A program made the position numbers and the translations under genes. The notes beneath the pieces are model-generated. The model worked only from the letters and a program-made list of their open reading frames with translations, made no database searches and had not been told where the DNA came from. Source: Psychrobacillus sp. NEAU-3TGS (GTDB taxonomy: Bacteria > Bacillota > Bacilli > Bacillales_A > Planococcaceae). Taken from it: a DNA stretch of 64,000 bases. Positions within the stretch are counted from its first letter, which is position 1. Every line of letters starts with the position of its first letter. Shown here piece after piece: positions 7,578-49,373 of this stretch. The stretch covers positions 129,599 through 193,598 of the forward strand of contig NZ_JAPNOZ010000004.1 of assembly GCF_029955155.1 (NCBI RefSeq), written 5' to 3'.

Positions 7578-8471
7578 TTAGCTTTTTACACGGAAAGAAG
7601 AGGGGATAGCAGGTTGTGCTCCCATTTGGGTAACAACGTATGCTGATATATTCGTTGCATATAAAATGCTGTCCTTTATGGAGCTCCCTTGGCATAGACC
7701 TACAGCTAAAGCGCCATTAAAAGCGTCCCCAGCACCAGTCGTATCTTTTGCAACCACTTTGTTTGCTTGAACATATCCATGCTCAAAGTGGTTCATGTAA
7801 TAAGCCCCTTTAGCGCCTAGGGTTACTACCACTGCTCCTACACCTTTTTGTAATAGTGAAGAGCAAGCTTGAAACAGTTCCTCTTCCGTTTCTGTTTTCA
7901 TCCCTGTTAGTATTGCTAATTCGGTTTCATTTGGTGTTAGTATAGAGATTTTACTCAATAATGAATCGCTAATTTGTTGAGCAGGAGCAGGATTTAAAAT
8001 AATTGGTACGCCATTTTTGGAAGCAATGTTAGCAGCAGTTTCGACTGCTGACATAGGAATCTCCAATTGTAGAAGAAGGACTTCGCTCGAGACTATTCTT
8101 TCTGCATGTTGCTCTATCTGTTCTGGTGTGACGAGAAAGTTTGCACCTGGAAAAAGAATAATCGAGTTTTCGCCCGAATCTGCCAATTGGATAATTGCTT
8201 GTCCTGTAATACCTACGTTTTGCACTGCGGCAATATTTACACCTTTGTCTTGCAAATTTTGCTTTATCTGTTCACCAAAATCATCTGCACCAACATTGCC
8301 GATGAAGTGAACCTTTGCTCCTAGTTGACCCGCAGTTACAGCTTGATTTGCTCCTTTTCCACCGAAGAACAATTCATGTTTTGTGCTATGTAATGTTTCA
8401 CCAGCTGCTACAATATGTGACACTAGATAGACAAGGTCGATATTGGTGCTTCCTACGACTGTGATGTTCAT
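7578..8471 (-). CDS. rbsK: Ribokinase (copy 1)
   Basis: A 297-residue PfkB-family sugar kinase. It shows the N-terminal ribose-binding motif (STNIDLVY), the FFGGKGANQAV motif and the C-terminal DTTGAGDAFNGAL signature with the catalytic Asp. It phosphorylates ribose to ribose 5-phosphate. The gene follows a nucleoside hydrolase by 34 bases, so the pair would turn nucleosides into free base and ribose 5-phosphate. A close paralogue lies at 18585-19478 in a larger operon with the same hydrolase partner. The copies share most residues throughout and probably arose by duplication of the pair. Confidence 0.93.
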   Translation of the reverse strand: MNITVVGSTNIDLVYLVSHIVAAGETLHSTKHELFFGGKGANQAVTAGQLGAKVHFIGNVGADDFGEQIKQNLQDKGVNIAAVQNVGITGQAIIQLADSGENSIILFPGANFLVTPEQIEQHAERIVSSEVLLLQLEIPMSAVETAANIASKNGVPIILNPAPAQQISDSLLSKISILTPNETELAILTGMKTETEEELFQACSSLLQKGVGAVVVTLGAKGAYYMNHFEHGYVQANKVVAKDTTGAGDAFNGALAVGLCQGSSIKDSILYATNISAYVVTQMGAQPAIPSSFRVKS

Positions 8472-8505
8472 GTTTTTCTATTCCTTTCATGGACTACAAG
8501 GTACT

Positions 8506-9456
8506 TTAATCCGCACTCATTTGTTTTACAGCATGGAAAAATTGCTCAACAAACTTTTCTCTATTGATTGTATGCAATACCTTCACATTATGTGGAAGTC
8601 CAGTTTGTTGGGCATAATCTACAATTGTAGTTCCAGCGGTATATTTTCCTTCTAATTCAACTGCAACGTGACAGTTGTCCCCTTCAAAAAGCTCGGGTGT
8701 TAGTACATAAGACACTGCACACAAATCATGTAAGTGTATCTGGTTTTCAAAATTAGGTGCATGAAATGCAGTTTGCTTAGCTGAATGTATGTAAAAGCGA
8801 AGCATTTGACTAACTTTTGAAGCAAAGTCAGAGCCTATTGCTTCCATTTCATTTATCTCTTCTATTGTAACGTATGCTTTATGCGTCACATCCAAACCGC
8901 TCATGACAATTGGAATCCCTGAACGGAAGACAATATCTGCTGCATGTGGATCGACGTATACGTTAAATTCTGCAGTGGGAGACATATTTCCTCCAACAGC
9001 AGCCCCACCCATGTAGGAGATATACTTAATTTTCGATTTTACCTCTGGATGTGCTAATAGTAATGCACCGACATTTGTTAAAGGACCGGTTGCGATAAGT
9101 ATTATTTGTTCATCGCTAGATAATAGAGTTTCTTTCATGGCTTCAATTGCTGGGCGATTACTTACTTGAATAGTTGGTTCTGGAAATTCGACATTGCCAA
9201 GTCCATTCTCGCCATGCACTTTATCGGCAATTTCAAGCTTGCGGAAAAATGGTTTATCGAGACCTCTTGCAATTTCTATATTTTTTTTCATATAGCTGGT
9301 AAAGGTAAGTGCATTGTGAATCGTTTTTTCTTGTGTTTGGTTGCCTGGCTCTGTTGTGATTAGTTTAATATCTAGTTCCGGATGTGCAAAAGCAAGCGTT
9401 AATGCCATTACGTCATCTATTCCTGGATCACAATCAATAATTACTGGTATTGTCAT
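8506..9456 (-). CDS. Inosine/uridine-preferring nucleoside hydrolase (copy 1)
   Basis: A 316-residue nucleoside hydrolase with the calcium-binding DCDPGIDDVMAL motif at the N-terminus, ATGPLTNVG in the middle, and the MSGLDVTHKA segment. It cleaves the N-glycosidic bond of ribonucleosides in the cytoplasm, giving base plus ribose, which the adjoining ribokinase would phosphorylate. The start is ATG 9456 behind GAGGTG. Directly upstream lies a 20-codon fossil of a LacI regulator, so this copy has lost its own repressor while the paralogue at 22.6-23.6 kb keeps one. Base specificity cannot be read from the sequence alone. Confidence 0.92.
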   Translation of the reverse strand: MTIPVIIDCDPGIDDVMALTLAFAHPELDIKLITTEPGNQTQEKTIHNALTFTSYMKKNIEIARGLDKPFFRKLEIADKVHGENGLGNVEFPEPTIQVSNRPAIEAMKETLLSSDEQIILIATGPLTNVGALLLAHPEVKSKIKYISYMGGAAVGGNMSPTAEFNVYVDPHAADIVFRSGIPIVMSGLDVTHKAYVTIEEINEMEAIGSDFASKVSQMLRFYIHSAKQTAFHAPNFENQIHLHDLCAVSYVLTPELFEGDNCHVAVELEGKYTAGTTIVDYAQQTGLPHNVKVLHTINREKFVEQFFHAVKQMSAD

Positions 9457-9469
9457 TTATCTACACCTC

Positions 9470-9532
9470 TTATTTAAAATGTTCCATGCTTTCACTGATT
9501 ATAGTATGTTTAAAGACTACTTCTTCAGAAAA
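9470..9532 (-). pseudogene. C-terminal remnant of a LacI-family regulator
   Basis: Read on the minus strand, this stretch encodes FSEEVVFKHTIISES plus five more residues and a stop. The intact LacI regulator at 23567-24571 ends with ISEGVIFEPTLIIRES plus a similar tail and stop. In both places the stop is followed within a few bases by a nucleoside hydrolase gene. The rest of the regulator is missing: about 50 bases upstream the sequence already resembles the regulator's promoter region. I conclude that an internal deletion removed almost the whole gene. Confidence 0.75.
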
Positions 9533-9586
9533 TGTGCAATTTAGGTACAACTACAGAATCAATTACTAACCTAAATATTTAGAGTA

Positions 9587-9602
9587 TTGCAGGCGATTAC
9601 GT
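9587..9602. promoter_or_regulatory. Degenerate cre-like site upstream of nucleoside module 1
   Basis: TTGCAGGCGATTACGT corresponds in position and flanks (TATTGCA..., ...TTTGTCAATT) to the cre site at 24644-24659 of the intact module, but has two departures from the CcpA consensus. It may be a decayed operator. Confidence 0.4.
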
Positions 9603-9641
9603 TTGTCAATTTATTTTCTGGTATTTTACAACCATAAAGAA

Positions 9642-9677
9642 GAACAGACCAATTCATTAAGAATTGGTCTTCTTTTT
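9642..9677. terminator. Orphan terminator-like hairpin between divergent genes
   Basis: AAGAAGA-GACCAATTC pairs with GAATTGGTCTTCTT and is followed by T residues on the plus strand. The flanking genes point away from each other, so no present gene obviously needs it. It probably belonged to a gene that has since been lost. Confidence 0.6.
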
Positions 9678-9910
9678 ATAGCTGAACATTGGAATAGATA
9701 GTTTGTTCATATGGAAAGTAAGAGTGAGGAATCCATCTGAAGTTCGCAACTACAAATACTACGCCAAAAGCTGAATTCTATATTACTAATAAAAATTTAC
9801 AAAATATTTACTTGACGTATTACTGACATATTCATTAGTTAAAGTATGTTTATCAGCAAGTTAGTTGATCTTTTTCAAAGCGTTTCAAATCTAATAAAAG
9901 GAGTGTATTC

Positions 9911-10612
9911 ATGCCTATTCATACATCATTTAATCCGAATGGTAGACAAGAACTGAAATATGGCATCACATATATAGATTATATGTTATTAAAAAATAGA
10001 CTGAAATATGTGATGAGTTTAGATACCCATTCTGGTCCAACAGGAAAATATTTAATTCGTTCGTGTTATTTTGATAACTTTGAAAACAAAGTAATGAACG
10101 AGAAAAAGGAAGGTTATTTAACTAGAGATAAATATCGTGTTCGTATTTATGGAAAAAGTGATGGGATTATTAATCTTGAACGGAAAAGTAAGCGTAATAA
10201 TCTAACTTTTAAATCTAAGTGCAATATGACGAGGTCAGAATTTGAAAAAATTCGTATCGGTGATATTCAGTGGATGGAAAAAGATAATCGCCCGTTAATT
10301 TGTGATTTGTACTCAGAAATGACTAGAAACTTAATTAAACCTATGGCAGTAGTAGATTACGAAAGAGAGGCTTACGTTTATTTATACGGAAATGTAAGAG
10401 TGACGTTTGATAGTAAAGTGCAAACAAGCATACGGAATACGGATATGTTCAATAAGCATTTACCGATGGTAGACGTACTTGATCCGACAGAGGTCATTTT
10501 AGAAGTAAAGTTTGACGAGTACTTACCGGATGTTGTGAAAATGATGCTTCAAGGTATTAATACGAAACATGAGGCTTATTCCAAATATCAGTTAAGTCGT
10601 ATGTATATATAA
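9911..10612 (+). CDS. VTC-domain (polyphosphate polymerase-like) protein
   Basis: A 233-residue protein of the VTC/CYTH-like tunnel fold. It shows R-x-E-x-K-Y near the start (RQELKYGI), basic strands such as KYRVRIYG and INLERKSKR, and an acidic strand VILEVKFDEYLP near the C-terminus. These alternating basic and acidic strands line the triphosphate tunnel in yeast Vtc4, which makes polyphosphate from ATP. It is the first gene of an operon with a DUF4956 membrane protein and a large lipoprotein, a pairing seen in many Firmicutes without a settled function. Polyphosphate synthesis is the family activity; it is not proven for this bacterial subgroup. The ribosome site is AAAGGAG. Confidence 0.85.
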   Translation: MPIHTSFNPNGRQELKYGITYIDYMLLKNRLKYVMSLDTHSGPTGKYLIRSCYFDNFENKVMNEKKEGYLTRDKYRVRIYGKSDGIINLERKSKRNNLTFKSKCNMTRSEFEKIRIGDIQWMEKDNRPLICDLYSEMTRNLIKPMAVVDYEREAYVYLYGNVRVTFDSKVQTSIRNTDMFNKHLPMVDVLDPTEVILEVKFDEYLPDVVKMMLQGINTKHEAYSKYQLSRMYI

Positions 10613-10674
10613 GGTAAATAATCAATCAGTTGGGGTTCTTCATCCCTAGCGAGATAAAATTAGGAGGAAATAAA

Positions 10675-11361
10675 ATGGCAACTTCAACAACTTTTACAGA
10701 TATTTTCAAATCAAGCTTTATAGAAAAAACAACTACCTTTTCATTAACTGATTCACTAATAGGTCTGATTTCAGCATTTCTATTGGGGATAGTTATTTAT
10801 TTAGTTTATAAGAAAACATTTAATGGAGTAATTTACTCCCATACATTCAACATCTCACTGATGATTATGACAATGGCAACATCGCTAGTCATCATGGGTA
10901 TCAGTCAAAATGTTCTATTATCACTTGGTATGGTCGGAGCGTTATCTATCGTTCGTTTCCGTACGCCGATTAAGGATCCAATGGATTTAGTCTACTTGTT
11001 TTGGTCGATAATTGTAGGGATTTTATGTGGTGCAGGTTTTATTCTGCTTGGAATTGTCGGCACAATCTTGATTAGTTTGGTTATTATCCTATTTGCAAAT
11101 AAAATTGTAGTGGAAAATCCATATTTATTAGTTGTGAAATTTGCTAATGGTGAAGCAGCAGATTCTATTGATCAACTATTAAAAAATTCAACGAAGAAAT
11201 ATGCATTAAAATCAAAATCTCATATTTTAGAATATGAAACGGAAGTAACGTATGAAATACGTGTGAAAGAAAATGATACAAAAGTAGTTTCCGATATTTC
11301 ACAAGTAAAAGGTGTTTCTTCAGCAGTAATGCTAAGCTACGATGGTAATTTTACAGCATAG
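10675..11361 (+). CDS. DUF4956 membrane protein
   Basis: A 228-residue protein with four predicted membrane helices in residues 20-150 and a soluble C-terminal domain of about 80 residues. The conserved core SLGMVGALSIVRFRTPIKDP lies between helices and is the hallmark of DUF4956. The start is ATG 10675 behind AGGAGGAAATAAA; an upstream in-frame ATG lacks a site. It follows the VTC gene by 62 bases. The arrangement suggests it is the membrane partner of the VTC enzyme, possibly a polymer export channel or anchor. That role is inference. Confidence 0.85.
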   Translation: MATSTTFTDIFKSSFIEKTTTFSLTDSLIGLISAFLLGIVIYLVYKKTFNGVIYSHTFNISLMIMTMATSLVIMGISQNVLLSLGMVGALSIVRFRTPIKDPMDLVYLFWSIIVGILCGAGFILLGIVGTILISLVIILFANKIVVENPYLLVVKFANGEAADSIDQLLKNSTKKYALKSKSHILEYETEVTYEIRVKENDTKVVSDISQVKGVSSAVMLSYDGNFTA

Positions 11362-11364
11362 TTG

Positions 11365-11402
11365 AAAACAAAGGTCTGTAAAATTACAGGCCTTTGTTTT
11401 AT
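11365..11402 (+). terminator. Intra-operon hairpin terminator/attenuator
   Basis: AAAACAAAGG-CTGTAA pairs with TTACAG-CCTTTGTTTT immediately after the DUF4956 stop and only about 15 bases before the lipoprotein start. It should reduce read-through, giving less lipoprotein mRNA than upstream mRNA, or protect the 3' end of the upstream message. Confidence 0.75.
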
Positions 11403-11415
11403 AGGAGGTAATAGG

Positions 11416-13680
11416 ATGAAGAAAAAAATAGCACTACCGTTAATATTATCGGTAGTTTTGATTGCAAGCGGATGTAATGAAAAGAGGAATACAGAGAAAT
11501 CTGTGGATACGGAAGCACTAATTTCCCAATATGTAGATTATGATACAGAAGATTACTACACTGCCTGGGAAGATGATATATTTACCAAAATAACTTTAAA
11601 TAATGAGGCAACAACATTTGACGGCTCTGGTGGCGTTATTATAAATGGGCAAAATGTAGAGATTCATACATCTGGTACTTATGTATTAGAAGGAACCCTC
11701 TCTGATGGTCAAATTAAGGTTAATACAGAGGATACTGGAAATGTACGCTTAATATTAAATGGTGTAGAGATTACTTCATCTACTAATGCAACAATTGATA
11801 TCGAGCAATCTGATAAAACGATTATCTCACTTGAAAAAGGTACAGAAAATAATTTAACGGATGCAACATCCTATGTTTATGAAGATGAAGCAAATACAGA
11901 AGTCGGGGCGGCTATTTTTAGTAAGGATGATTTAGTCATCAATGGTACTGGTACATTGACGGTTAATGGTCAATACAAAGATGGAATAACGAGCCGTGAT
12001 GATTTGATTATTACAGGTGGTACTATTAATGTAACTGCAGTCGATGATGGTGTTATCGGTCGCGATGTATTTGCAATGTCTAATGCTACGGTTAATATAA
12101 CTGCAGATGGCGATGGTGTAAAATCATCCAATGATGAGGATGAAGGTCGAGGAAATGTAGTTCTCGAAAGTGGTTATTTAACAGTGGTAGCACAGGGTGA
12201 CGGTATACAAGCCGAAAAGGAAATTATAGTAATCGATGGGGAGTATTCCATTAAAACAGGTGATGGAAGTCCAGAGGTTGTGTCTTCATCAGAATCAGGC
12301 ATGGGAATGGGCGGTGGCCCAGGTGCAGGAGCGATGCCAGAAATGGGGATGGATTTCAGTTCAATGACAGATGACGAAGTAGAGGCATTTGTTGAGAATA
12401 TGGAAAGTATGAATCTCCCGATTGATATTTCAACTGAAATTGAAGGCATGACAACAGAGGAAATTCGAGCGTATTTAACAACGACTTTAGAATCTATGAG
12501 GCCTCCAGGCGGTGGTGGAATGGATCGGCAAAACTCAGGGGGTAGTGAATTACCTGAAGATGGACAACTTCCTGATGAAAGTGCTGAACAAAATACTCCA
12601 CCAGAAAGAAATTCAGAAGATAATAACACCAGTACTTCGAGTGTTGATACTACCAGTCAAAAGGGAATAAAAGCAGGAACAAATTTAAATATTGTAGGTG
12701 GTTCAATCACAGTTGATACAGTGGAGGATGCACTGCATAGTAATGGAGATTTAACCATTCGAGGTGGAGAAGAAAATCTTTCAACGGGTGATGATGCTAT
12801 ACATGCAGACGGTAAGGTATTTATTGCTGGTGGTGATATTACAATATTAAAAAGCCTAGAGGGTATAGAAGGTACTAATATTGAGATTTCGGATGGTTCC
12901 ATTCATCTTAAGGCAGCAGATGATGGTGTCAATGTAAATGGTGGTAGTAGTATGAATGAGATGTTTGGGGCTTTTGATCGAACCTCCACTACAACAGAGA
13001 CTGAGGAAATAGAAGAAGATGACTCTTCAATAGAGAATGGCCAGCTTACGATTTCTGGAGGATATCTATACGTCGATGCAGATGGTGATGGATTAGATTC
13101 TAATACAAATATTACGATGACGGGTGGAACCGCTATCGTTTATGGTCCAACCGAGAATATGAATGGGACATTAGATTATGATGGAACATTTTTAATGCAA
13201 GGCGGAACATTAATAGCTTCTGGTAGTGCAGGAATGCCGTTAGGTGTATCTGATGGATCAACACAAAATACGATTATGATGACATTCGATGAGTCACTTA
13301 AAGCAAACACACCTGTTACTGTAACAAACAGTAATGGTGAACCGATTATCACGGTCGCACCTGAAAAAAATTATCAAATGATCGTAATTAGTTCTCCAGA
13401 CTTAGAGCTAAATGAAGAAACAACTTTAAGTCACGGGGGTACTATAACAGGTGAAATTATTGATGGGGTCTATACAAACGCCACTACCACAGATCCAACA
13501 GGTAGTGTGACCTATTCTCCTACAACAGTCATGACTTATTTAAATAGTAGTGGAGTGACAGAAGAAGGCTCTTCTACGATGGGCGGTGGAATGAGAGGTA
13601 ATATGCAAGGTGGAGGGGGTTTTGGTAGAGGCCAAGAGCGACAACAACCTGACAAAACGGAGGATGCTACAAATGAGTAG
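11416..13680 (+). CDS. Large carbohydrate-binding beta-helix lipoprotein (Cthe_2159-like)
   Basis: A 754-residue exported protein with a lysine-rich start, a hydrophobic segment and a lipobox LIASGC, so it should be lipid-anchored outside the membrane. The body is made of short repeats such as GTINVTAVDDGVIGRD, YVDADGDGLDSN and AADDGVNVNGG, typical of a right-handed parallel beta-helix with calcium-binding Asp turns, as in the Cthe_2159 polygalacturonate-binding family. It is interrupted near residues 295-410 by a Met/Gly/Pro-rich then acidic low-complexity stretch, and it ends in a second Met/Gly-rich tail. The start is ATG 11416 behind ATAGGAGG. Operon context with VTC and DUF4956 suggests it binds or organises a surface polymer; this is inference. 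Confidence 0.85.
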   Translation: MKKKIALPLILSVVLIASGCNEKRNTEKSVDTEALISQYVDYDTEDYYTAWEDDIFTKITLNNEATTFDGSGGVIINGQNVEIHTSGTYVLEGTLSDGQIKVNTEDTGNVRLILNGVEITSSTNATIDIEQSDKTIISLEKGTENNLTDATSYVYEDEANTEVGAAIFSKDDLVINGTGTLTVNGQYKDGITSRDDLIITGGTINVTAVDDGVIGRDVFAMSNATVNITADGDGVKSSNDEDEGRGNVVLESGYLTVVAQGDGIQAEKEIIVIDGEYSIKTGDGSPEVVSSSESGMGMGGGPGAGAMPEMGMDFSSMTDDEVEAFVENMESMNLPIDISTEIEGMTTEEIRAYLTTTLESMRPPGGGGMDRQNSGGSELPEDGQLPDESAEQNTPPERNSEDNNTSTSSVDTTSQKGIKAGTNLNIVGGSITVDTVEDALHSNGDLTIRGGEENLSTGDDAIHADGKVFIAGGDITILKSLEGIEGTNIEISDGSIHLKAADDGVNVNGGSSMNEMFGAFDRTSTTTETEEIEEDDSSIENGQLTISGGYLYVDADGDGLDSNTNITMTGGTAIVYGPTENMNGTLDYDGTFLMQGGTLIASGSAGMPLGVSDGSTQNTIMMTFDESLKANTPVTVTNSNGEPIITVAPEKNYQMIVISSPDLELNEETTLSHGGTITGEIIDGVYTNATTTDPTGSVTYSPTTVMTYLNSSGVTEEGSSTMGGGMRGNMQGGGGFGRGQERQQPDKTEDATNE

Positions 13681-13736
13681 TTCAATGTAGGCTCAATTAT
13701 GTAGATATAACGAAGTATACGAATGACTTCATGAGA

Positions 13737-13784
13737 AAACAGCCTTCCAAGTCGAAAACTTCGATTTGGGGGCTTTTCTTTTTA
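13737..13784 (+). terminator. Terminator ending the VTC-lipoprotein operon
   Basis: AGCCTTCCAA-TCGAA pairs with TTCGA-TTGGGGGCT and is followed by TTTTCTTTTT. It separates the lipoprotein gene from the response regulator. Confidence 0.8.
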
Positions 13785-13917
13785 AGCTGCCAACATACGG
13801 AATTCAATGTATGTAAATCATTTAATTTGGTGAGATTCCGGCCGACATTTCTCTGACTTAAATAGGTGGTATAATGTAAGAAATTTAGAAACTCTCAGGT
13901 AAGGGTGTGCTAGGCGG

Positions 13918-14598
13918 ATGAAAAAAATATTAATAGTCGAAGATGAGTTTGCCATTAGCCAAGTACTGAAAGCGTATTTAACGAAACAAAATTATGAAGT
14001 AGTACAGTGCTACACTGGGGGAGAAGCAATAGAGGTATTTGAAAAGGAATGTCCTGATCTAGTATTGTTAGATATAATGCTTCCTGGGAAAAACGGCTGG
14101 GTTATTTTAAAAGAAATTCGTTCTCTAGGGAGTTGCCCAGTTATTATGTTAACTGCATTAGGAGATGTTAACTATCGCCTAGAAGGCTTTGGCGAAGGTG
14201 CAGATGATTATATTACAAAACCATTTATTGCTGATGAAGTTGTCGCAAGAGTAAAGGCGGTATTGCGAAGGGTATCTAGTGAAGAACCATCAACTATCAA
14301 CTTTGGTAAGCTTCATATAGATTTTATTGGTCATTCTGTATGGCTAGATGGAAAAGAAATATTTCTTACACCAAGGGATTTGTCAGTATTACTATTTTTG
14401 GCTAAGCAACCGAACCAAACATTTACTAGAGATCAGTTAATTGAACATATTTGGGGATGGGATTACGACGGAAGTGACCGAGCAGTTGATTTATCTATAA
14501 AGCGTCTGAGAAAAGCACTCGCTGATTGGTCGGAAGATGAAGGCGAGATTAGAACATTACGAGGATTGGGGTATCAATTCAATGTTAGACAAAAATAA
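13918..14598 (+). CDS. OmpR/PhoB-family response regulator
   Basis: A 226-residue two-domain regulator. The receiver domain has the acidic pocket (VEDE at residues 7-10), phospho-acceptor Asp52 in LLDIMLP, Thr in MLTALG and Lys in YITKPF. The C-terminal winged helix contains LTPRDLSVLLFLAK, the transactivation loop and the recognition-helix region DRAVDLSIKRLRKAL. The partner kinase overlaps its 3' end. It sits directly after the VTC/DUF4956/lipoprotein operon, which suggests that those genes are its targets or that it senses a related surface signal. A -10-like TATAAT lies at 13870-13875. Confidence 0.93.
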   Translation: MKKILIVEDEFAISQVLKAYLTKQNYEVVQCYTGGEAIEVFEKECPDLVLLDIMLPGKNGWVILKEIRSLGSCPVIMLTALGDVNYRLEGFGEGADDYITKPFIADEVVARVKAVLRRVSSEEPSTINFGKLHIDFIGHSVWLDGKEIFLTPRDLSVLLFLAKQPNQTFTRDQLIEHIWGWDYDGSDRAVDLSIKRLRKALADWSEDEGEIRTLRGLGYQFNVRQK

Positions 14599-15994
14599 GA
14601 GAGTGACTCTGTTGTCGTATTGGACAAGTAGATATTTATTAACATTAATAATAGGATTGTTAATAATCTCTTTTATTTCAGCACTATGGATACGACATAC
14701 GACACTCGAAAATCGTTTAGAAATGATGGAGTTTATGGCAGAAGAGATGGTGAATCGGATTACTGATGTAAGTATGCCTGGAATTCCTCCAAATGAAAGA
14801 GTGCCAGATTTTGCTGAAGATCGGTTTAGGATGCAAAATATTAACCCATCCATGTACATAGTCAATACGGATGGAGAAGTAATATCAAGTAATTTTCCAT
14901 TAAAACAAGGGGAGCAAAGGACATTTAGTCAATTAATAAGTGGAAAAGATGAAATTGAAACATTTATTTCTCCCGAAAACAATAAAAAATATTATTCGGT
15001 AAAAAGGAAAATTGAGATAGATGATGAGCTTGTTGGCTGGATATTGATGGTTGAGTCAAAAGAAAAATTAACGATGGTTAAACAAGAGTATGGCCAGCTA
15101 GCTATATTGATAGTTGGACTTGCATTGCTTGGCTGGTGGGCTATATATTTTCTGTCGAGGAGATTAGCGCATCCGATAAAACAAGTAGCAGAAGCAGCTA
15201 AGCAAGTGCAAAGTGGTAACTATGAAATCAATTTATCGGACCATATTAAGGAAAAAGAAGTATACGAGCTTGTTTCTTCATTTAAACAAATGGCAGGACG
15301 GTTAGAGCAATTAGAAAAAACAAGAACTGAATTATTAGCAGGTGTGACACATGAACTAAAAACGCCAGTAACGTCGATTAGTGGATTATTGCAAGCGGTA
15401 AATGATGATGTCGTCACTGGACAAGAAGCAGAAGAGTTTATTCGAATGGCGCTTGTTGAAACGACCAAGATGAAAACAATGGTCGGTGATTTACTAGCGT
15501 TCAATTCCTTTGCAGTAGGCGCGGTACCTGTGGAAATTTCTCGTCTAGATATTGATAACTTTATGAAAGAATTAACTACTCAGTGGAAAGCGATACAGGA
15601 GCAATCAAATGTAGTGGTGAACCTACAATTACTTCATAAAAAAGTAATGATTTCTGCTGATTTAGTTCGTTTACAACAAATCATGACCAATTTATTAACA
15701 AACGCAGAACAAGCAATATCCGGGATAGGTGAAATAACAATCTCGCTTTCTGAAAAAGGACAGTATGTATCTGTCCTCGTTAAAGATTCAGGATCAGGAA
15801 TACAAATTGGAGAGCAAGCTTTTATCTTCGAGCGGTTCTTTAGAGGAGAAAATAAAAAGTACGGTATTCGCGGGCTTGGTCTAGGATTGCCTCTGAGTAA
15901 AATGATGGCACAATCGATTAAAGGTGATTTACATTTAGTTGAAAGTACAGAAAAAGGCACATGCTTTGAATTGCTACTATTAAAAGAAGGCTAA
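14582..15994 (+). CDS. Membrane sensor histidine kinase
   Basis: A 470-residue sensor kinase. Helix 1 (about residues 17-36), an extracellular sensor region of about 135 residues, and helix 2 (about 172-191) are followed by a HAMP linker (SRRLAHPIKQVAEAAKQV). The dimerisation/phosphoacceptor helix has His257 in GVTHELKTPVTS, and the ATP-binding domain shows LLTNAEQAI (N box), DSGSGI (G1) and RGLGLGLPLSK (G2). The start chosen is ATG 14582, which overlaps the response regulator by 17 bases; a longer frame upstream would overlap by 62 bases. The extracellular region is unlike any sensor domain I recognise. Confidence 0.9.
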   Translation: MLDKNKRVTLLSYWTSRYLLTLIIGLLIISFISALWIRHTTLENRLEMMEFMAEEMVNRITDVSMPGIPPNERVPDFAEDRFRMQNINPSMYIVNTDGEVISSNFPLKQGEQRTFSQLISGKDEIETFISPENNKKYYSVKRKIEIDDELVGWILMVESKEKLTMVKQEYGQLAILIVGLALLGWWAIYFLSRRLAHPIKQVAEAAKQVQSGNYEINLSDHIKEKEVYELVSSFKQMAGRLEQLEKTRTELLAGVTHELKTPVTSISGLLQAVNDDVVTGQEAEEFIRMALVETTKMKTMVGDLLAFNSFAVGAVPVEISRLDIDNFMKELTTQWKAIQEQSNVVVNLQLLHKKVMISADLVRLQQIMTNLLTNAEQAISGIGEITISLSEKGQYVSVLVKDSGSGIQIGEQAFIFERFFRGENKKYGIRGLGLGLPLSKMMAQSIKGDLHLVESTEKGTCFELLLLKEG

Positions 15995-17697: not shown

Positions 17698-18585
17698 CTA
17701 TTTAATCAGTGGAACATCTCTTTTAAATATATGAATATTCATGAGCAGTAAGCTTAAAATCATCAATGGCAACCCAATTACTATTCCTAAATGAAAGGGT
17801 TCCTGTAAAAAGAAAATACCTAAAGCGATTGTGATAAAAGGACTGACAAACGTAACCATTGATGCAAGAATAGGTCCTCCAATTGAAATAATTTGATAAA
17901 AAATAACATAGCCAAGCCCAGCGCAAAGACAACCTAATACGAGAAGTGGTAATATTGTTTCCCATGTTCCTAAGTGTTTATATGCATACGGTTCCATAAA
18001 GGCACTAATAATCCCATTTACAATGGTTGAAATTAAAAGTGTCCAAAAACCTAGTAGAATTGTAGGGATGCTTGTATAATACTTTTTTATCCATATAGAA
18101 TTTAATGCGTATGCCATTGTAACAGCGAACATAAGAAAAGCGTGGAAAATGGAAAACTGAACGCCAGTAGATTGACTAGAAAAAAGTATTAACACGGTAA
18201 CTGCCACAAATCCTATTAACAGGCTGATTGTTTGGTTCCAAGAAGGCTTTGTTTTCAGAATAACTATGGAAAATAATAAAGCAAATAAAGGTGTAGTGGC
18301 ATTTAATATTCCGCTTAAACTTGTATCAATTCCTTGAAGAGAGAAGGCCATAATATTCCAAGGGATGGCAGCACCTAAAGCTAGCACGAATACAAAAAAT
18401 GGACGAATTTTCAGATGCATTCGATTTTTTTTGAGTAATATAAATGGTAAAAGAGCAACTAAACCAAATAAGCAACGAAAAAAAACAATAGTAGGGGGCT
18501 TAAAAACATCTAAAAGCTCTTTTGTCCACATGAATGCAGACCCCCATAAAAAACTGAGAACGATTAAATAGATGATCGACTTCAT
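17698..18585 (-). CDS. EamA/DMT-family transporter
   Basis: A 295-residue protein with about ten transmembrane helices in two EamA repeats, starting IYLIVLSFLWGSAFMWTKEL and with PPTIVFFRCLFGLVAL in the second helix region. Members export amino acids, bases, nucleosides or other metabolites. It is the last gene of the nucleoside salvage operon and its start codon overlaps the ribokinase stop (TAATG), so it is translationally coupled. Export of surplus bases released by the nucleoside hydrolase would make sense, but this is inference from context. Confidence 0.85.
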   Translation of the reverse strand: MKSIIYLIVLSFLWGSAFMWTKELLDVFKPPTIVFFRCLFGLVALLPFILLKKNRMHLKIRPFFVFVLALGAAIPWNIMAFSLQGIDTSLSGILNATTPLFALLFSIVILKTKPSWNQTISLLIGFVAVTVLILFSSQSTGVQFSIFHAFLMFAVTMAYALNSIWIKKYYTSIPTILLGFWTLLISTIVNGIISAFMEPYAYKHLGTWETILPLLVLGCLCAGLGYVIFYQIISIGGPILASMVTFVSPFITIALGIFFLQEPFHLGIVIGLPLMILSLLLMNIHIFKRDVPLIK

Positions 18586-19478
18586 TATTTGTTTACTCGA
18601 AAAGAATGGGGAATAGTAGGTTGTGCACCCATTTGTGTAACAACAAATCCTGCAACTTTTGATGCATATAAAATGCTTTCTCGTAATGAGTTTCCTTGAC
18701 GTAAACCTACTGCTAATGCACCGTTAAACGCATCACCCGCGCCTGTTGTATCTTTTACTTCTACTTGATTTGCTTGTACATATCCATGTTCATTGATATT
18801 CATATAATAGGAACCTTTTTCTCCTAATGTCACGACAACTGCCCCTACTCCTTTATGAATCAATAGAGAACAAGCTTGGAACAGACCCTCTTCTGTGTTA
18901 GTTTTTAACCCAGTTAGCATCTCTAACTCGGTTTCATTTGGTGTTAGTATGGAAATTTTACCTAGTAATGAATCACTTATTTGTTGGGCAGGTGCTGGAT
19001 TTAAAATAATATGTATCCCTTTTTGTGAAGCGATGTCTGCAGCAGCCTCGACCACAGGTATAGGAATTTCCAATTGTAAGAGAAGAACGTCACTTGCTTC
19101 TATTTTGTCTTTTGCTGCGGATATTTGTTCTCTTGTAACAAGAAAATTTGCACCAGGAAATAGTACGATAGAATTTTCTCCTGAATCCGCTACTTGAATA
19201 ATGGCTTGACCAGTCAATCCGATTTTTTGTACAGCCTCGGTCTTTACCCCTTTTACTTGTAAGTTTTGCTTTACTTGTTCCCCAAAATCATCTGCTCCGA
19301 CGTTACCTATAAATTCGACATTAGCCCCTAATTGACTAGCAGTTACCGCTTGATTGGCACCTTTTCCTCCGAAAAACAGTTCATGTTCTGTGCTGTGTAA
19401 TGTTTCTCCGGCTTTCACGATATGTGGTACCGTGTATACAAGGTCTATATTTGTACTGCCTACAACAGTAATGTTCAC
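18585..19478 (-). CDS. rbsK: Ribokinase (copy 2)
   Basis: A 297-residue PfkB-family kinase with FFGGKGANQAV, ILTPNETEL and DTTGAGDAFNGAL in the usual places; it makes ribose 5-phosphate from ribose. It is the closest visible relative of copy 1 at 7578-8471, with the same length and long identical blocks. It lies 17 bases after the second ECF ATPase gene and overlaps the EamA gene at its end, so it belongs to the ECF transporter operon and completes a route from imported nucleoside to ribose 5-phosphate. Confidence 0.94.
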   Translation of the reverse strand: MNITVVGSTNIDLVYTVPHIVKAGETLHSTEHELFFGGKGANQAVTASQLGANVEFIGNVGADDFGEQVKQNLQVKGVKTEAVQKIGLTGQAIIQVADSGENSIVLFPGANFLVTREQISAAKDKIEASDVLLLQLEIPIPVVEAAADIASQKGIHIILNPAPAQQISDSLLGKISILTPNETELEMLTGLKTNTEEGLFQACSLLIHKGVGAVVVTLGEKGSYYMNINEHGYVQANQVEVKDTTGAGDAFNGALAVGLRQGNSLRESILYASKVAGFVVTQMGAQPTIPHSFRVNK

Positions 19479-19495
19479 GTATTATTTCGCTCCTT

Positions 19496-20308
19496 TCATA
19501 AACTGTGCTGTGCTAAAATTGCTTCGATTAATTGCTGCTTTGATAAAATGCCTGGAGAGAAATCAAGTAATTTTGCCATTTGGGCAACAGCGGGAGGTTT
19601 TAACATACTTTTTTCTAAAACTTCCGTATTATAAAAGACTTTTTGTGCATTGTCATCGGCTACTAATTGTCGGTTTGCCATTACAATAATGCGTGTAAAA
19701 TAGTCTGTTACAAACTCCATATCGTGCGTAATTGTAATAACAGATTTCTGCTTTTCTTCTAACACTTGAAGTAGATTCCCTAAAACTTGTAAACCAATTT
19801 TATCTTGTCCAGCAGTAGGTTCATCCAAAATGATAATATCTGAATCCATAGCTAATACCGATGCTATTGTTACAAACTTTCTAACAGAGTAGGGTAAGTT
19901 ATAAGGATTTTCTTCTGCGAACTCAGAGATTCCACATAATTTCATCGCCCAATCAGTAAGTTCATTTACTCGTTCAGGTTCAAATCCCATGTTTTTGGGA
20001 CCAAAACGAACTTCAGATTCTACATCATTATGGAATATTTGATCATCCGGATTTTGGAAAACATAGCCTACTTTTCTCGAAACTTGTGCTGTTGTGTGAT
20101 TTTTTGTATCCCAATCTCCTACTAGAACAGAGCCTTCTGTAGGTTTTAATAATCCATTCATTAACTTGACTGCTGTCGTTTTTCCTGCCCCATTTTGTCC
20201 TACAATGGCTACACGTTCTCCAGATGTGACAGAGAGTGTAAGGTTTTCTAGCGCCTTTGTTCCATCTGGATATGAAAAGCTAACATTAGTTAGATGAAGT
20301 TCAGTCAT
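19496..20308 (-). CDS. ecfA2: ECF transporter ATPase with degenerate signature motif (EcfA2-like)
   Basis: A 270-residue ABC ATPase. Walker A is GQNGAGKTT, the Q-loop is VFQNPDDQIF (the ECF-type sequence), and Walker B is DIIILDEPTAGQD. The LSGGQ signature is replaced by LPYSVRKFVTIAS, so one of the two composite ATP sites of the ECF heterodimer would carry a non-canonical signature. Its partner ATPase next door has a normal one. The start ATG overlaps the end of the partner gene by 8 bases. Together with EcfT and the S-component it should power uptake of the substrate bound by the S-component. Confidence 0.88.
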   Translation of the reverse strand: MTELHLTNVSFSYPDGTKALENLTLSVTSGERVAIVGQNGAGKTTAVKLMNGLLKPTEGSVLVGDWDTKNHTTAQVSRKVGYVFQNPDDQIFHNDVESEVRFGPKNMGFEPERVNELTDWAMKLCGISEFAEENPYNLPYSVRKFVTIASVLAMDSDIIILDEPTAGQDKIGLQVLGNLLQVLEEKQKSVITITHDMEFVTDYFTRIIVMANRQLVADDNAQKVFYNTEVLEKSMLKPPAVAQMAKLLDFSPGILSKQQLIEAILAQHSL

Positions 20309-21161
20309 GTGCAGCTACCTCCGTTCTATTTAAAGCATCGGCTAGTTCTTCATCACGAATTGGTAGGAAAGTAAGGGGGATACCTGATTGCTGTAATTGA
20401 AGAGCAATTTCTGTAACATGTGGATATTGAATTTGATATTTTTCAAACTCAGGATCCGCAAATACTTCACGAACAGGACCTTGCATAACAAGTTCTCCTT
20501 TGTGCATAACAAGTAGATCATCCGCATATTCTGCGATCAGATCCATCTTATGTTCTACTAAAACAATTGTCTTTCCACGCTCTTTCATCAGCCGTATAAT
20601 TTCAAATATTTGTTGTGTACCAATAGGATCGAGTTGAGAAGTTGGTTCATCTATTACTAAAATTTCTGGATCCATTACAATAATAGACGCAAGGGCTACT
20701 CTTTGCCTTTGCCCACCTGAAAGTTCAAATGGATTTTTGTCTCGTAAATATTCGATTTTGACAAGTTTTAGTACTTCTTCTACTCGAACTTTAATTTCTT
20801 CGACCGGAATGCCTAGGTTTTCTAAACCGTACGCTACTTCTTCAAATACATTGTCTTTTACTCCCGACACTTGAATGAATGGATTTTGAAATACATATCC
20901 TACTTTTTCTCCAAGTTGCCCTAATTGGTAATCTGTTATTTTTGTTTGATCGATTATTACTTCTCCATCTAATTCTCCCTTATAAAAGTGGGGGACAAAG
21001 CCTCGTATTGTATTACATAATGTTGTTTTTCCAGAGCCATTATTGCCGATAATTGCAGTGAATTTTCCTTTTTCAATTGAAAATGAAATATTTTTTAACA
21101 CGGAGTCATCGCTGACTGGATAGCGGTAAGATACATTTTTTAAATCAATCATAGCTGTCAT
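20301..21161 (-). CDS. ecfA1: ECF transporter ATPase, canonical (EcfA1-like)
   Basis: A 286-residue ABC ATPase with Walker A GNNGSGKTTL, Q-loop VFQNPFIQVSG, signature LSGGQRQRVALAS, Walker B ILVIDEPTSQLDP and switch His in VLVEHKMD. The start ATG (21161) follows GGAGG by eight bases and overlaps the ecfT stop codon as ATGA; an upstream in-frame ATG is embedded in the ribosome site and is less likely. It pairs with the degenerate ATPase encoded immediately downstream. Confidence 0.9.
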   Translation of the reverse strand: MTAMIDLKNVSYRYPVSDDSVLKNISFSIEKGKFTAIIGNNGSGKTTLCNTIRGFVPHFYKGELDGEVIIDQTKITDYQLGQLGEKVGYVFQNPFIQVSGVKDNVFEEVAYGLENLGIPVEEIKVRVEEVLKLVKIEYLRDKNPFELSGGQRQRVALASIIVMDPEILVIDEPTSQLDPIGTQQIFEIIRLMKERGKTIVLVEHKMDLIAEYADDLLVMHKGELVMQGPVREVFADPEFEKYQIQYPHVTEIALQLQQSGIPLTFLPIRDEELADALNRTEVAAHD

Positions 21162-21901
21162 AAGAAAAACCTCCATACAATTAGACCAATAACAACCAAT
21201 GCAAAGACAATTGGAAGAGCTCGGTCCATGTTACTTTTCGATAGTTGGTGTAAGCTTGTTTTTTTGACGGGAGCAGAAAATGCCCTAGATTCCAATGTAA
21301 TTGCTCTCTCTTCTGTTCCTGCGATAGAAGATAATATAAGCGGAGTTAGCGTTGGTATAAAAGCTTTAGCACGTACAAATATGGAACCTTCCGTTTCGAC
21401 ACCACGTGTTTTTTGCGCTTCCATAATGGTATTTGCTTGGCGACGCATTTCTGGAATGATTTGAAGGGTTGATAATACGACATATGCTCCCATCGGTGGC
21501 AATCCTATATCTTCTAATGATTTCACGAAATCACGTACTTCTGTCATTCGGAAAAATAGAATAAAAGCAGATCCAATTGCAAGAATCCGGGATGTGAGTA
21601 ATAGACCATATTTTATTCCTTCTTGTTTTATTTCAAAGATGCCCCATTCCCAAAGCACATTTTCCCCAGGATAGAAAAACATTTGCATAATGAAGATGAA
21701 GATTAAAACAGTAACCAAAGCTTTAATAACGATATTGAGGAACTCTTTTGCAACACCGGCAAGCATTGCTATTAGTATTAAAATAGGGAAGATGGCAAAA
21801 GAAAATATATATCCAGGCGATATGAGCACTACCGCAAAGATAAAGAGAGTGAAAAAGAACTTTGTCATTGGATGAAGTTGAAGTAATATATTTTGTTTCA
21901 A
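21158..21901 (-). CDS. ecfT: ECF transporter transmembrane coupling protein EcfT
   Basis: A 247-residue membrane protein of the CbiQ/EcfT family: a hydrophobic N-terminal half with several helices, then a long cytoplasmic coupling region with the short Ala-Arg motifs (FVRAKAFIP and TLESRAF) that dock on the two ATPases. It links ATP hydrolysis to toppling of the S-component. Its stop codon overlaps the start of the next gene, indicating translational coupling. Because one S-component gene lies just upstream in the same operon, this looks like a dedicated (group I) ECF transporter. Confidence 0.9.
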   Translation of the reverse strand: MKQNILLQLHPMTKFFFTLFIFAVVLISPGYIFSFAIFPILILIAMLAGVAKEFLNIVIKALVTVLIFIFIMQMFFYPGENVLWEWGIFEIKQEGIKYGLLLTSRILAIGSAFILFFRMTEVRDFVKSLEDIGLPPMGAYVVLSTLQIIPEMRRQANTIMEAQKTRGVETEGSIFVRAKAFIPTLTPLILSSIAGTEERAITLESRAFSAPVKKTSLHQLSKSNMDRALPIVFALVVIGLIVWRFFL

Positions 21902-21973
21902 GTTACATACGCCCCTTATAAAAATAATTTCTTCCCGTTCAAGAAATGAATAGTTAAACGGGAAGAATAAGAA

Positions 21974-22576
21974 TTATTTTCTGTTATTTCGTTTCATGTA
22001 CAAGTCCCCATAATTCATCTTGGATAAATAACGATCTGACATGGCTTTTACGATAAAGTAAACGATTAAAACAGAAACAACTTTGTCTGCAACCTCTGTG
22101 ATAAAGCTAGAAGAGAAGACTGCGGACCATAATTCCTGTCCTGACGCTAAGAAAGCTGCAGTAATAAGGGATGAAGTATTTCCTGTTACTCCACCAAAGA
22201 CAAACACCGTGATAGGTGCTGAAACAATAACTGCTATAAAAGTAATAATGATTCCAGAAATAATTGTTTTTGGTACACTTTTGAAAAAACCGTATTTAGA
22301 AAGGTAACCTGCACCAACCCCAATTGCTATAGAAGTTAATGCGTAAGGAAAATAAACAGGATTAAAAATACCGTTAATTAAATTTGTAATAAGTCCTGTA
22401 AGTAGAGCAACCCAAGGGCCTGCAATAACCCCAACTATAATTGTGCCAATCGTATCTAAGAATATTGGTAAGCGAAGTACATTAGCTAACTGAAATCCTA
22501 CTAGGTTCACTGCTACTGCAATCGGAATTAACAGCATTGCCATCATATTAAAATCATCTTTAAAGCTGCGTTTCAT
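21974..22576 (-). CDS. ECF transporter substrate-binding S-component, probably for nucleosides
   Basis: A 200-residue protein with about six membrane helices. It includes the LRLPIFLDTIGTIIVGVIAG stretch and GPWVALLTGLITNLINGIFN, typical of S-components of ECF vitamin transporters. It lies 22 bases downstream of a nucleoside hydrolase and upstream of ecfT-ecfA-ecfA' and ribokinase. That context points to uptake of a ribonucleoside (inosine, uridine or similar) or possibly ribose. The family assignment is firm; the substrate is inferred from neighbours only. Confidence 0.82.
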   Translation of the reverse strand: MKRSFKDDFNMMAMLLIPIAVAVNLVGFQLANVLRLPIFLDTIGTIIVGVIAGPWVALLTGLITNLINGIFNPVYFPYALTSIAIGVGAGYLSKYGFFKSVPKTIISGIIITFIAVIVSAPITVFVFGGVTGNTSSLITAAFLASGQELWSAVFSSSFITEVADKVVSVLIVYFIVKAMSDRYLSKMNYGDLYMKRNNRK

Positions 22577-22598
22577 GAATTTTCCCCCTTTGCTTTTT

Positions 22599-23555
22599 TT
22601 AGCCGATTTGTCGGCTCATTGTTTGAACGGCACTCAGAAATTGTTCAACAAACTTCTCTCTATGAACCGTATGTAATACTTTCACATTATGCGGAAGCCC
22701 AGTTCGTTGTGCATAATCTACAACAGTTGTTCCGGCTGTCAACTTGCCTTCTAGCTCGATTGCCACATAACAGTCATCGCCTTCAAATAATTCAGGTGTT
22801 AATACATAAGACACTGCGCATAGATCATGTAAACGTATATGACTTTCAAAACCCTCCTCATGAAATGCTGTCTGTTTAGCTGTGTGTACATAAAAACGAA
22901 GCATCTGAACAACCTTATGTGCAAAATCAGTACCAATTGCTTCGATTTGGTTTAATTCTTCTTTTGTAACGTATGCTTTATGGGTTACGTCTAATCCGCT
23001 CATGATGATTGGAATGCCAGAACGAAAGACAATGTCTGCAGCGTGTGGATCGACATATACGTTAAATTCTGAAGTAGGAGTCATATTTCCACCTACTGCA
23101 GCCCCACCCATATAAGAGATATATTTAATTTTTGATTTTACTTCTGGGTGCGCCAGTAGAAGGGCACCGACATTTGTCAAAGGTCCTGTCGCAATGAGTA
23201 CGATTTGTTCGTCACTAGATAAGAGTGTTTCTTTCATTGCTTCTATTGCGGTTCTATTACTTAATTGGATAGTTGGTTCTGGAAAATGGACATCCCCAAG
23301 TCCATTGTCTCCATGTACTTCATCGGCGATTTCAAGCTGACGGAAAAAAGGATTATCTAAACCTCTAGCAATCTCGATATCTTTTTTCATATAACTAGTA
23401 AAAGCAAGTGCGTTGTGAATTGTTTTTGCTTGTGTTTGGTTTCCTGGTTCTGTTGTGATGAGTCTGATGTCTAGTTCGGGATGAGCAAAGGCGAGTGTTA
23501 GCGCCATTACGTCATCTATTCCTGGATCACAATCGATAATTACTGGTACTGTCAT
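22599..23555 (-). CDS. Inosine/uridine-preferring nucleoside hydrolase (copy 2)
   Basis: A 318-residue nucleoside hydrolase with DCDPGIDDVMAL, ATGPLTNVG and MSGLDVTHKA, closely similar over its whole length to copy 1. It releases the base and ribose from imported nucleosides. The start is ATG 23555 behind GAGGTG; a longer frame upstream would overlap the regulator stop and has no ribosome site. It is the first enzyme gene after the lacI regulator and is followed by the ECF S-component gene 22 bases on. Confidence 0.93.
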   Translation of the reverse strand: MTVPVIIDCDPGIDDVMALTLAFAHPELDIRLITTEPGNQTQAKTIHNALAFTSYMKKDIEIARGLDNPFFRQLEIADEVHGDNGLGDVHFPEPTIQLSNRTAIEAMKETLLSSDEQIVLIATGPLTNVGALLLAHPEVKSKIKYISYMGGAAVGGNMTPTSEFNVYVDPHAADIVFRSGIPIIMSGLDVTHKAYVTKEELNQIEAIGTDFAHKVVQMLRFYVHTAKQTAFHEEGFESHIRLHDLCAVSYVLTPELFEGDDCYVAIELEGKLTAGTTVVDYAQRTGLPHNVKVLHTVHREKFVEQFLSAVQTMSRQIG

Positions 23556-23566
23556 GTGTTTACACC

Positions 23567-24571
23567 TCATTGTAATTTTTTTGTGCTTTCTCTGATTATT
23601 AAAGTAGGTTCAAATATTACACCTTCCGAAATCTCACCTTCTATTTTGTTAATAAGTAGGTCTATTGCTTTTCTTCCCATTTCATAAGTATCTTGTCTAA
23701 CCGTAGTTAACTTTGGGATTAATGCGGTTACTAATGGAATATCATCAAAACCAACGATGGATAGTTGATCAGGTATTTGAATTCCCATTTCATGTGCAGC
23801 TTGGTAGATTCCACAGGCCATTAAGTCATTACTAGCAAAAATAGCGGTCACCGTATTATCCCGTAGAAACTTTTTTGCTACACGATAAGCAGTATCCATT
23901 TGAAAGTCGCCAACTAAAATGGAGGATGCAGGAAGATCTACAGTAGCTTCCTTTAGAGCTCGTTGAAACCCAGAAAGTCTTTGTTTGGAATTTTGAATTT
24001 CTCTTGGTCCCGTCATACAGGCAATTTGAAAGTGACCTAAATCTGTCAGGTGTTTCCCTGCTAGGTAACCACCTTTTTCATTGTCTAAAAAGACACCTGA
24101 ATAATCGGTTCCATCTTCTCCACGGTCAAATAGTACATAAGGAATTTTGCCATTTTGTAACTGATTTTTACTAGTCTTTGATAAACGATCCTTACTAGAA
24201 AGTAATATGCCATCTACTTGTTGTTCTTTTAACAAGCGTATATAATTTTCTTCTTTCCCGGATTGATCGTCTGAATTACAAATAATGAGACTATATTGCC
24301 TATTGTTTGCTTCATCTTCTGCACCCCTACAAAGTTCAGGAAAGTAGGGATTGGTAATATTTGGGACTATTAATCCGAGCATATTGGAGCGTTTTGTTAC
24401 TAAACCACGAGCTAACTTATTTGGTTGGTAATTTAGCTCTTTCATTACTTTCAGGACTTTCTCCCGAGTTTTTTGGGTCATTCCATCTTCCTTATTGTTT
24501 AATACTCGTGAAACTGTTGTGATTGAAACACCTGCCTCCCTAGCTATATCCTTGATTGTTAACTTTTCCAT
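23567..24571 (-). CDS. LacI-family transcriptional regulator of the nucleoside/ribose operon
   Basis: A 334-residue regulator. The N-terminal helix-turn-helix with hinge (TIKDIAREAGVSITTVSRVL ... YQPNKLARGL) is followed by a periplasmic-binding-protein-like effector domain (VGFDDIPL near the C-terminus). It resembles RbsR/PurR-type repressors, so ribose, a nucleoside or a base is the likely effector. It is the first gene of the operon, 11 bases before the hydrolase start, and is preceded by palindromes of the LacI type, so it probably autoregulates. A fossil of a paralogue lies at 9470-9532. Confidence 0.9.
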   Translation of the reverse strand: MEKLTIKDIAREAGVSITTVSRVLNNKEDGMTQKTREKVLKVMKELNYQPNKLARGLVTKRSNMLGLIVPNITNPYFPELCRGAEDEANNRQYSLIICNSDDQSGKEENYIRLLKEQQVDGILLSSKDRLSKTSKNQLQNGKIPYVLFDRGEDGTDYSGVFLDNEKGGYLAGKHLTDLGHFQIACMTGPREIQNSKQRLSGFQRALKEATVDLPASSILVGDFQMDTAYRVAKKFLRDNTVTAIFASNDLMACGIYQAAHEMGIQIPDQLSIVGFDDIPLVTALIPKLTTVRQDTYEMGRKAIDLLINKIEGEISEGVIFEPTLIIRESTKKLQ

Positions 24572-33523: not shown

Positions 33524-33539
33524 ATTCAAAATTAAATAA

Positions 33540-49233: not shown

Positions 49234-49373
49234 CAAAAAAATCCCTCCGAATATGAATCGGAAGGACTCGTTGCCTTTTAAAAAATACGCAAAAAACCAC
49301 TACAAAAATAGAGTGTTGTAGAGAATCTTTCGTATTTGATTGAAAAATGGGCAGACTAATCCTATTTCCGATT
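49234..49373 (-). promoter_or_regulatory. Transcription attenuator in the ABC-F leader
   Basis: On the minus strand, TCCTTCCGA pairs with TCGGAGGGA followed by T7 (49234-49267), an intrinsic terminator ending about 25 bases before the start codon. Upstream, AATCGGAA (49366-49373) can pair with the TTCCGATT of that terminator. The adjacent CACTACAAAA can alternatively pair with TTTTGTAGTG located between them. These are mutually exclusive folds of the kind that control vmlR and other ABC-F genes. Confidence 0.7.

Follow-up and report, generated by a model that had tools for sequence, protein, structure and literature searches.

A 64,000-nucleotide stretch of the Psychrobacillus sp. NEAU-3TGS genome (the window, in whose numbering positions are given unless a locus is named) carries five genes in line on the forward strand between positions 9911 and 15994, encoding a VTC-domain protein, a DUF4956 membrane protein, a beta-helix lipoprotein of the Cthe_2159 family, a response regulator and a sensor histidine kinase. 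These genes form a real and conserved system that, on comparative evidence, is regulated as a unit, and it appears to serve the envelope and to be widespread. In the samples searched the pairing of VTC with DUF4956 is obligate, and the third gene is an exchangeable slot that holds either a CotH-type kinase or a Cthe_2159 lipoprotein. The best single reading, to which we give a probability of about 40%, is that VTC makes polyphosphate, DUF4956 hands it over and the surface protein receives it. A preliminary description of the window, made from its letters alone, had placed all five genes in line on one strand and had proposed that they work as one regulated system; the first point holds and the second is well supported, through the obligate pairing, the conserved regulator neighbours and a full regulator box at just two promoters of this genome, those of the VTC operon and the regulator gene.

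The VTC-DUF4956 pair

The recurrence of VTC with DUF4956, also remarked on in the preliminary description, is borne out by a gene-neighbourhood survey. Among 150 related genomes (the order sample, those listed all of one family), VTC occurs in 60 genomes at 70 loci and DUF4956 in the same 60, likewise at 70 loci, a count that leaves out G066, where a VTC fragment with a stop falls under the cut-off, and that merges the split halves of G027. DUF4956 lies directly downstream of VTC on the same strand in 70/70 loci and has no match elsewhere in these genomes. Across the phylum, a script check found both families in the same 25 of 199 genomes; the genes are at most 0.4 kb apart on one strand at 29 of the 31 loci, 2 kb apart at one and divided across contig ends at another, and in a few loci DUF4956 precedes VTC. 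A further set of named loci, the best 80 of 581 found through DUF4956 and annotated on all open frames, has VTC beside DUF4956 in all 76 with at least 900 bp upstream. Both families are present in the same three of 14 named control genomes (Bacteroides ihuae, Corynebacterium glutamicum and Methanosarcina acetivorans), and a Nonomuraea record carries VTC, DUF4956 and CotH in a row.

The VTC gene (9911-10612) encodes a triphosphate tunnel protein of 233 residues that matches PF09359 at 129.6 bits (E = 1.8e-37; cut-off 23) over profile positions 2-229 of 235. The Pfam scan found the VTC domain alone in this protein and no recognised export part. A profile built from 12 relatives matches yeast Vtc4 structures in the PDB, with Vtc4 chains at 1.4e-14 to 5.6e-9 ranking above the single Vtc2 and the single Vtc3 chain listed. 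We take the Vtc4 tunnel to be lined by a set of basic residues with a metal-binding glutamate, numbered here by an offset of 185 that we set from the residue names. On this assumption K200, R264, R266, E279, K281, K294, R361, R373, E426 and K428 of Vtc4 are all kept in the aligned window protein, as K16, R76, R78, E90, K92, K101, R152, R163, E198 and K200, and two positions are substituted (R253 by K65 and K256 by G68). Loss of the tunnel residues had been named in the preliminary description as the finding that would speak against its proposal; they are present, including the three (R264, R266 and E426) whose joint replacement inactivates Vtc4 according to the available text of PMC9911596.

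The DUF4956 gene (10630-11361, likely start ATG 10675) matches PF16316 at 40 bits (E = 4.4e-10; cut-off 30.6) and encodes hydrophobic helices followed by a C-terminal ACT/ferredoxin-like domain. In a model built with 37 sequences (mean predicted local distance difference test score 85.3), helices are predicted at residues 24-48, 56-76, 80-94, 102-119 and 123-143, ahead of the ACT-like domain, and R94, F95 and R96, where the short third helix ends, do not vary among the 37 sequences. The best Foldseek matches are NikR, ACT and MgtC C-terminal domains (including 2lqj; best E = 1.4e-3), and the Pfam match to MgtC, at 2.4e-4, lies under its cut-off. A DUF4956 profile searched against the PDB matched no Vtc chain. 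To our knowledge, neither DUF4956 nor the VTC-domain proteins of bacteria have an established function.

An exchangeable surface partner

The third gene (11362-13680, likely start ATG 11416; PF14262, E = 6.8e-89) encodes a lipoprotein of 754 residues with a lipobox-like IASGC and an insert rich in glycine, methionine and acidic residues. Residues 71-301 align to the Cthe_2159 structure 4PEU (4peu_A; phmmer 8e-35). The carbohydrate-binding repeats that the preliminary description had ascribed to this protein are a label of the family and are corrected here to this structural homology. According to the part of PMC6712302 available to us, Cthe_2159 proteins bind cellulose as well as polygalacturonic acid; the latter is an acid polymer, and this counts in favour of the best reading.

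Within 6 kb of VTC, the partner at the 70 loci is CotH in 30, Cthe_2159 in 24, neither in 16 and both in none; at the 52 named loci with enough flank, the corresponding numbers are 38, 12, 2 and 0 (third-gene counts leave out loci with short flanks, which keeps 52 of the 80 named loci and 67 of the 70 in the order sample). The lipoprotein, which the preliminary description had taken as part of the system, occupies a slot that holds a CotH kinase in 30/70 and 38/52 related loci. On a tree of VTC and DUF4956 that covers 147 of 152 loci, the label changes between CotH and Cthe_2159 at least nine times, this being the minimum on that tree, which is a FastTree tree alone and came with long-branch warnings. 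One supported branch has all ten pel-type loci of the 70 to the same side of it. The 150 genomes contain 25 Cthe_2159 genes, of which 24 lie close to a VTC pair, and the sole CotH match in the Psychrobacillus genome is an open frame of 367 residues on another contig.

The two kinds of partner share a Gly/Met-rich stretch, defined as 40 residues with at least 35% of these two amino acids, which is found in 33/43 Cthe_2159 partners and 49/65 non-pel CotH partners. The comparison sets gave 0/10 for pel-type CotH, 0/1 for VTC-unlinked Cthe_2159, 1/4 for CotH of unclassed loci and 11/380 for other open frames of at least 380 residues at the same loci. In 73 aligned CotH proteins of these loci, including the spore-type one of L039, three acidic positions are invariant.

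Several neighbouring arrangements were seen in passing. A secreted-looking helical-repeat protein (LDEATKEKVKAIMEQ..) at positions 1897-2571 of locus L206 lies behind a box site of the kind described below and resembles, by eye, helices in some Cthe_2159 inserts, such as that of L055. L034 and L040 carry a second VTC-DUF4956 subtype with no nearby CotH or Cthe_2159, beside surface-sugar genes for a dehydratase, an aminotransferase and a UDP-sugar dehydrogenase. Both named loci that have neither partner have a MATE-family gene downstream of the pair (L135, 5028-6392; L166, 11377-12819). In the pel-type locus L057, an exporter PelG is fused to a CotH kinase domain (7683-10898; 1071 residues) beside VTC-DUF4956, with PelF upstream; judging by length, the same fusion seems to be present in seven others of the ten pel-type loci, and L063 and L078 have two separate genes.

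Transcripts, regulator and box

The evidence is in favour of two co-regulated transcripts, VTC-DUF4956-lipoprotein and regulator-kinase, because a terminator-like hairpin (13744-13772, forward strand, 13 pairs followed by a T-rich tail) separates the lipoprotein and regulator genes and the regulator gene has a predicted promoter of its own. The predicted VTC-operon promoter (9813-9845, forward strand) consists of the box TGAC-N7-TGAC at 9813-9827 and the -10 element TAAAGT at 9840-9845, and the predicted regulator-gene promoter (13843-13875, same strand) of CGAC-N7-TGAC at 13843-13857 and TATAAT at 13870-13875; both were recognised by comparison between loci. A second terminator-like hairpin was seen by eye 3' of the kinase gene. 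A single operon of five genes is rejected in view of the first hairpin together with the separate predicted regulator promoter.

The regulator (13918-14598; 226 residues) is of the OmpR/PhoB type, with a receiver and a winged-helix domain (Pfam Response_reg and Trans_reg_C), and it reached no NCBIfam cut-off among the 25 of 99 models listed. Its paired kinase (14537-15994) has a predicted alpha/beta sensor between transmembrane helices, followed by HAMP, HisKA and HATPase_c domains; the kinase model has a predicted template modelling score of 0.44, and its fold matches are ordinary sensor kinases such as WalK. At least two genes of the regulator and kinase clusters are present within 6.5 kb of VTC in 21/24 Cthe_2159 loci and 17/18 non-pel CotH loci, as against 0/10 pel-type loci and 1/18 loci with no typed partner (two loci with a divergent CotH are typed as having none, and the single CotH miss is the spore-type case discussed below). 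These neighbours, together with the pairing in 70/70 loci, show that the arrangement is not due to chance. In the 52 named loci, a regulator/kinase pair lies within 5 kb at 9/12 Cthe_2159, 21/38 CotH and 1/2 partnerless loci. Among the 20 regulators listed, of 74, the window regulator is 68-75% identical to CotH-type regulators of its own group and 35-39% identical to regulators beside Cthe_2159 loci of other genera. It follows that a single control module goes with either surface protein and that regulators of more than one lineage have been taken up.

Regulators of the OmpR/PhoB type bind direct-repeat boxes with a period of about 11 bp, which the predicted boxes here would fit by comparison between loci. 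Of the loci whose regulator is at least 60% identical to that of the window, 23/23 have the box TGAC-N7-TGAC ahead of VTC, the regulator gene or both, as against 0/52 loci with another adjacent regulator and 2/72 loci with no typed regulator nearby: L088, from a congener, has no regulator within 7 kb, and in L108 the regulator gene is further off and is also boxed. Elsewhere in the same loci, 32 sites occur in 2.17 Mb. With the TAnAnT -10 element at its fixed distance from the box, the full pattern has exactly two sites in the 4.42-Mb genome, before VTC and before the regulator gene, and one in the reversed control; as these two were among the sites from which the pattern was drawn up, this count speaks to scarcity elsewhere and is not an independent discovery. 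A looser pattern was dropped as a specific marker, having six genome sites and six in the reversed control.

Over 21 genomes with the system, the full pattern has 59 sites, against six in the control, and 39 of them lie within 8 kb of VTC, in 21/21 genomes. We inspected 18 of the 20 distant sites (those of G085 C4 and C67 were left out), along with two near-locus sites in G085 and G059, which precede a PrsA-like foldase. Seven of the 18 precede a membrane acyltransferase (Acyl_transf_3) far from VTC in seven genomes of one genus (L196-L202), of which one protein was scanned with Pfam and the others are 75-92% identical to it. One distant site precedes a PrsA-like foldase, one a DUF3500 lipoprotein with a Gly/Pro/Met-rich start and two secreted-looking proteins of 224 and 73 residues, and seven are unclear or due to chance. 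The PrsA-like foldase that is boxed beside the locus in congeners (L212 and L213) has no close counterpart in the Psychrobacillus genome, the best match being 33% identical. The regulon looks small and directed to the envelope.

Around the VTC locus, ribokinase-like genes at 7578-8471 and 18585-19478 (named by eye) encode proteins that are 78% identical, and paralogues at 8506-9456 and 22599-23570, likewise to either side, are 86% identical, as if a segment (7578-9456, 18585-23570) had been duplicated around it. RNAs lie elsewhere in the window, at 45088-45277, 33538-33764 and 49235-49459: two tandem Bacillaceae-1 RNAs, a T-box leader and the ncr1575 small RNA.

Possible function and relation to known systems

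We infer the chemistry of the system as follows. The locus would be a self-contained, inducible envelope module whose sensor kinase detects some extracytoplasmic signal. The regulator, as the comparative footprints suggest, would bind TGAC-N7-TGAC just upstream of the -10 element and activate the VTC operon as well as its own gene. Homology and the kept tunnel residues point to VTC as an enzyme that may polymerise polyphosphate from ATP in the cytosol. DUF4956 could stand in for what yeast Vtc4 combines in a single chain, namely transmembrane and regulatory parts: the helices would draw the growing polyanion off the enzyme and bring it to the membrane or through it, and the ACT-like domain would sense a cytosolic ligand. 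The exported partner, Cthe_2159 here and a CotH-type kinase elsewhere, would then receive or use the polymer or its phosphate at the surface. For yeast VTC, the available text of PMC9911596 supports a model in which the nascent chain is cleared from the catalytic centre by the transmembrane region, and it describes synthesis as coupled to a basic transmembrane channel; such coupling is the reason we offer for a membrane partner being enforced on VTC. A more specific version, in which soluble polymerase and membrane/ACT protein are a bacterial split counterpart of VTC that exports polyphosphate, CotH uses it as phosphate donor where ATP is lacking and Cthe_2159 displays it, all under dedicated two-component control, is in our estimate unlikely.

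A number of observations weigh against polyphosphate synthesis and hand-over by one coherent system. PPK1 is also encoded in this genome and is found in 45/60 genomes with VTC and 56/90 without (p = 0.11), so that the two are distributed independently across the 150 genomes; a role for VTC as a PPK replacement is rejected on these grounds. No CotH or Cthe_2159 lies within 6 kb at 16/70 loci, and among the 30 CotH partners that of G124 C1 is of the spore type and 3.7 kb distant. Exceptions to the pairing exist, as the DUF4956 genes of Hymenobacter and Sinorhizobium have no VTC within about 6 kb by our profile, and the 52 loci with another adjacent regulator do not have the box. The fold matches of DUF4956 are weak (none below E = 0.001) and confined to the C-terminal domain, and its predicted topology is ambiguous, with four or five transmembrane segments; its Streptococcus intermedius counterpart SIR_1592 is given four in the portion of PMC12345266 at hand. 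According to the same portion, deletion of SIR_1593, the polyphosphate polymerase, leaves strains that aggregate and make Pel, with no change reported.

The points on PPK1 and missing partners bear differently on the idea that VTC-DUF4956 feeds an intracellular polyphosphate pool (for storage, as a chaperone or as a signal) that serves the envelope indirectly, with no export and with surface proteins that merely share the regulator. Such a pool would account for the partnerless loci, for a VTC with no recognised export part and for the resemblance of DUF4956 to MgtC (the weak Pfam match and the C-terminal match to 2lqj), the MgtC family being regulatory. It sits poorly with a genome that already has PPK1, with an exported-type partner near the pair in 54/70 loci (one of them the remote spore-type CotH) and 50/52 loci, and with the CotH-PelG fusion of L057, which points to work outside the membrane; we regard it as improbable. 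No better in our judgement is a different tunnel chemistry, by which phosphate from ATP is loaded onto a membrane or glycan acceptor that DUF4956 handles and the surface protein binds or modifies, the product not being polyphosphate. The reactions of the tunnel family are diverse, to go by the accessible text of PMC4641920, and the pair is found in polysaccharide contexts: pel-type loci, the sugar genes of L034 and L040, an acyltransferase in L051 and a polysaccharide cluster on a Pseudobutyrivibrio plasmid. Against this stand the better matches to Vtc4 than to the listed Vtc2 and Vtc3 chains and the conservation of the residues used to inactivate the polymerase. It is less likely still that the exported partner serves simply as an adhesin or a protein of the matrix and that VTC-DUF4956 aids the assembly of a varying surface polysaccharide, with no polyphosphate-calcium bridge. 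The binding of plant polysaccharides by Cthe_2159 proteins (PMC6712302, in the part available) would suit this, as would the box sites that relatives have before PrsA-like foldases, a membrane acyltransferase and a DUF3500 lipoprotein; however, ten other window proteins that were scanned (not every window gene) include no polysaccharide synthase and, as the only possible exporter, a MATE protein (980-2365) about 7.5 kb away, and the full box occurs at only two promoters in this genome.

If polyphosphate hand-over is correct, the locus would provide a PPK1-independent bacterial route to make and export an anionic polymer, and might explain the phosphate source of an extracytoplasmic CotH-type kinase. 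Should polyphosphate be the wrong product, an inducible locus with a two-gene core and a swap of the third gene would still allow the real one to be found. The system can be approached through its two-protein core, never apart in the two samples of Bacillota, through a surface partner that is interchangeable, and through a promoter box whose regulon is very small.

The system was called undescribed in the preliminary description, which holds in part. CotH, polyphosphate polymerase and DUF4956 have been noted beside pel in streptococci, clostridia and bifidobacteria (PMC7112168, available in part), and the part of PMC12345266 available to us treats them as an accessory cassette in S. intermedius, where deletion of SIR_1592 (transmembrane segments and ACT) or SIR_1594 (CotH) reduces aggregation to less than half in one medium and the two deletions shift Pel amounts in opposite directions. 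The same text states that its analyses met the three genes together nowhere but beside pel, which the loci described here appear to contradict, though our Pel profiles were built from one family. VTC and CotH genes have also been placed in one Clostridium perfringens locus (PMC2879425, again in part); the 'tubulin/FtsZ' genes beside that VTC are, from their size and place, probably DUF4956. A full-text literature search, with subscription papers and preprints mostly outside its reach, returned, in the texts seen, no study of a free-standing VTC-DUF4956 system and no functional study of bacterial VTC or DUF4956 beyond the S. intermedius deletions. VTC-DUF4956-CotH beside pel is known; the locus of the window, which stands free of pel, has its own regulators and carries an exchanged partner, is a new variant.

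Four known systems offer comparison. The window locus resembles the yeast VTC complex in the catalytic domain, a homologous tunnel whose key residues are kept, and in an enzyme tied to membrane helices, whereas the window VTC has, by Pfam scan, no SPX domain or fused transmembrane part. The MgtC/SapB family has a weak sequence match to DUF4956 and a similar C-terminal ACT-like fold; DUF4956 differs in lying below the curated cut-offs and in its obligate pairing with VTC in the samples here. The Cthe_2159 structure (4PEU/4PHB) is homologous over residues 71-301 to a window protein that is, in contrast, a 754-residue lipoprotein with a Gly/Met-rich insert, inside a VTC operon. Closest is the pel accessory cassette (SIR_1592-1594), which has the same VTC-DUF4956 pair and an exported third protein. 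It differs in that the window locus, 22 Cthe_2159 loci and 19 other CotH loci have no PelF- or PelG-like gene within 6 kb, by profiles built from this family that could miss divergent pel genes, and in that the window locus has a two-component system and a Cthe_2159 lipoprotein in place of CotH.

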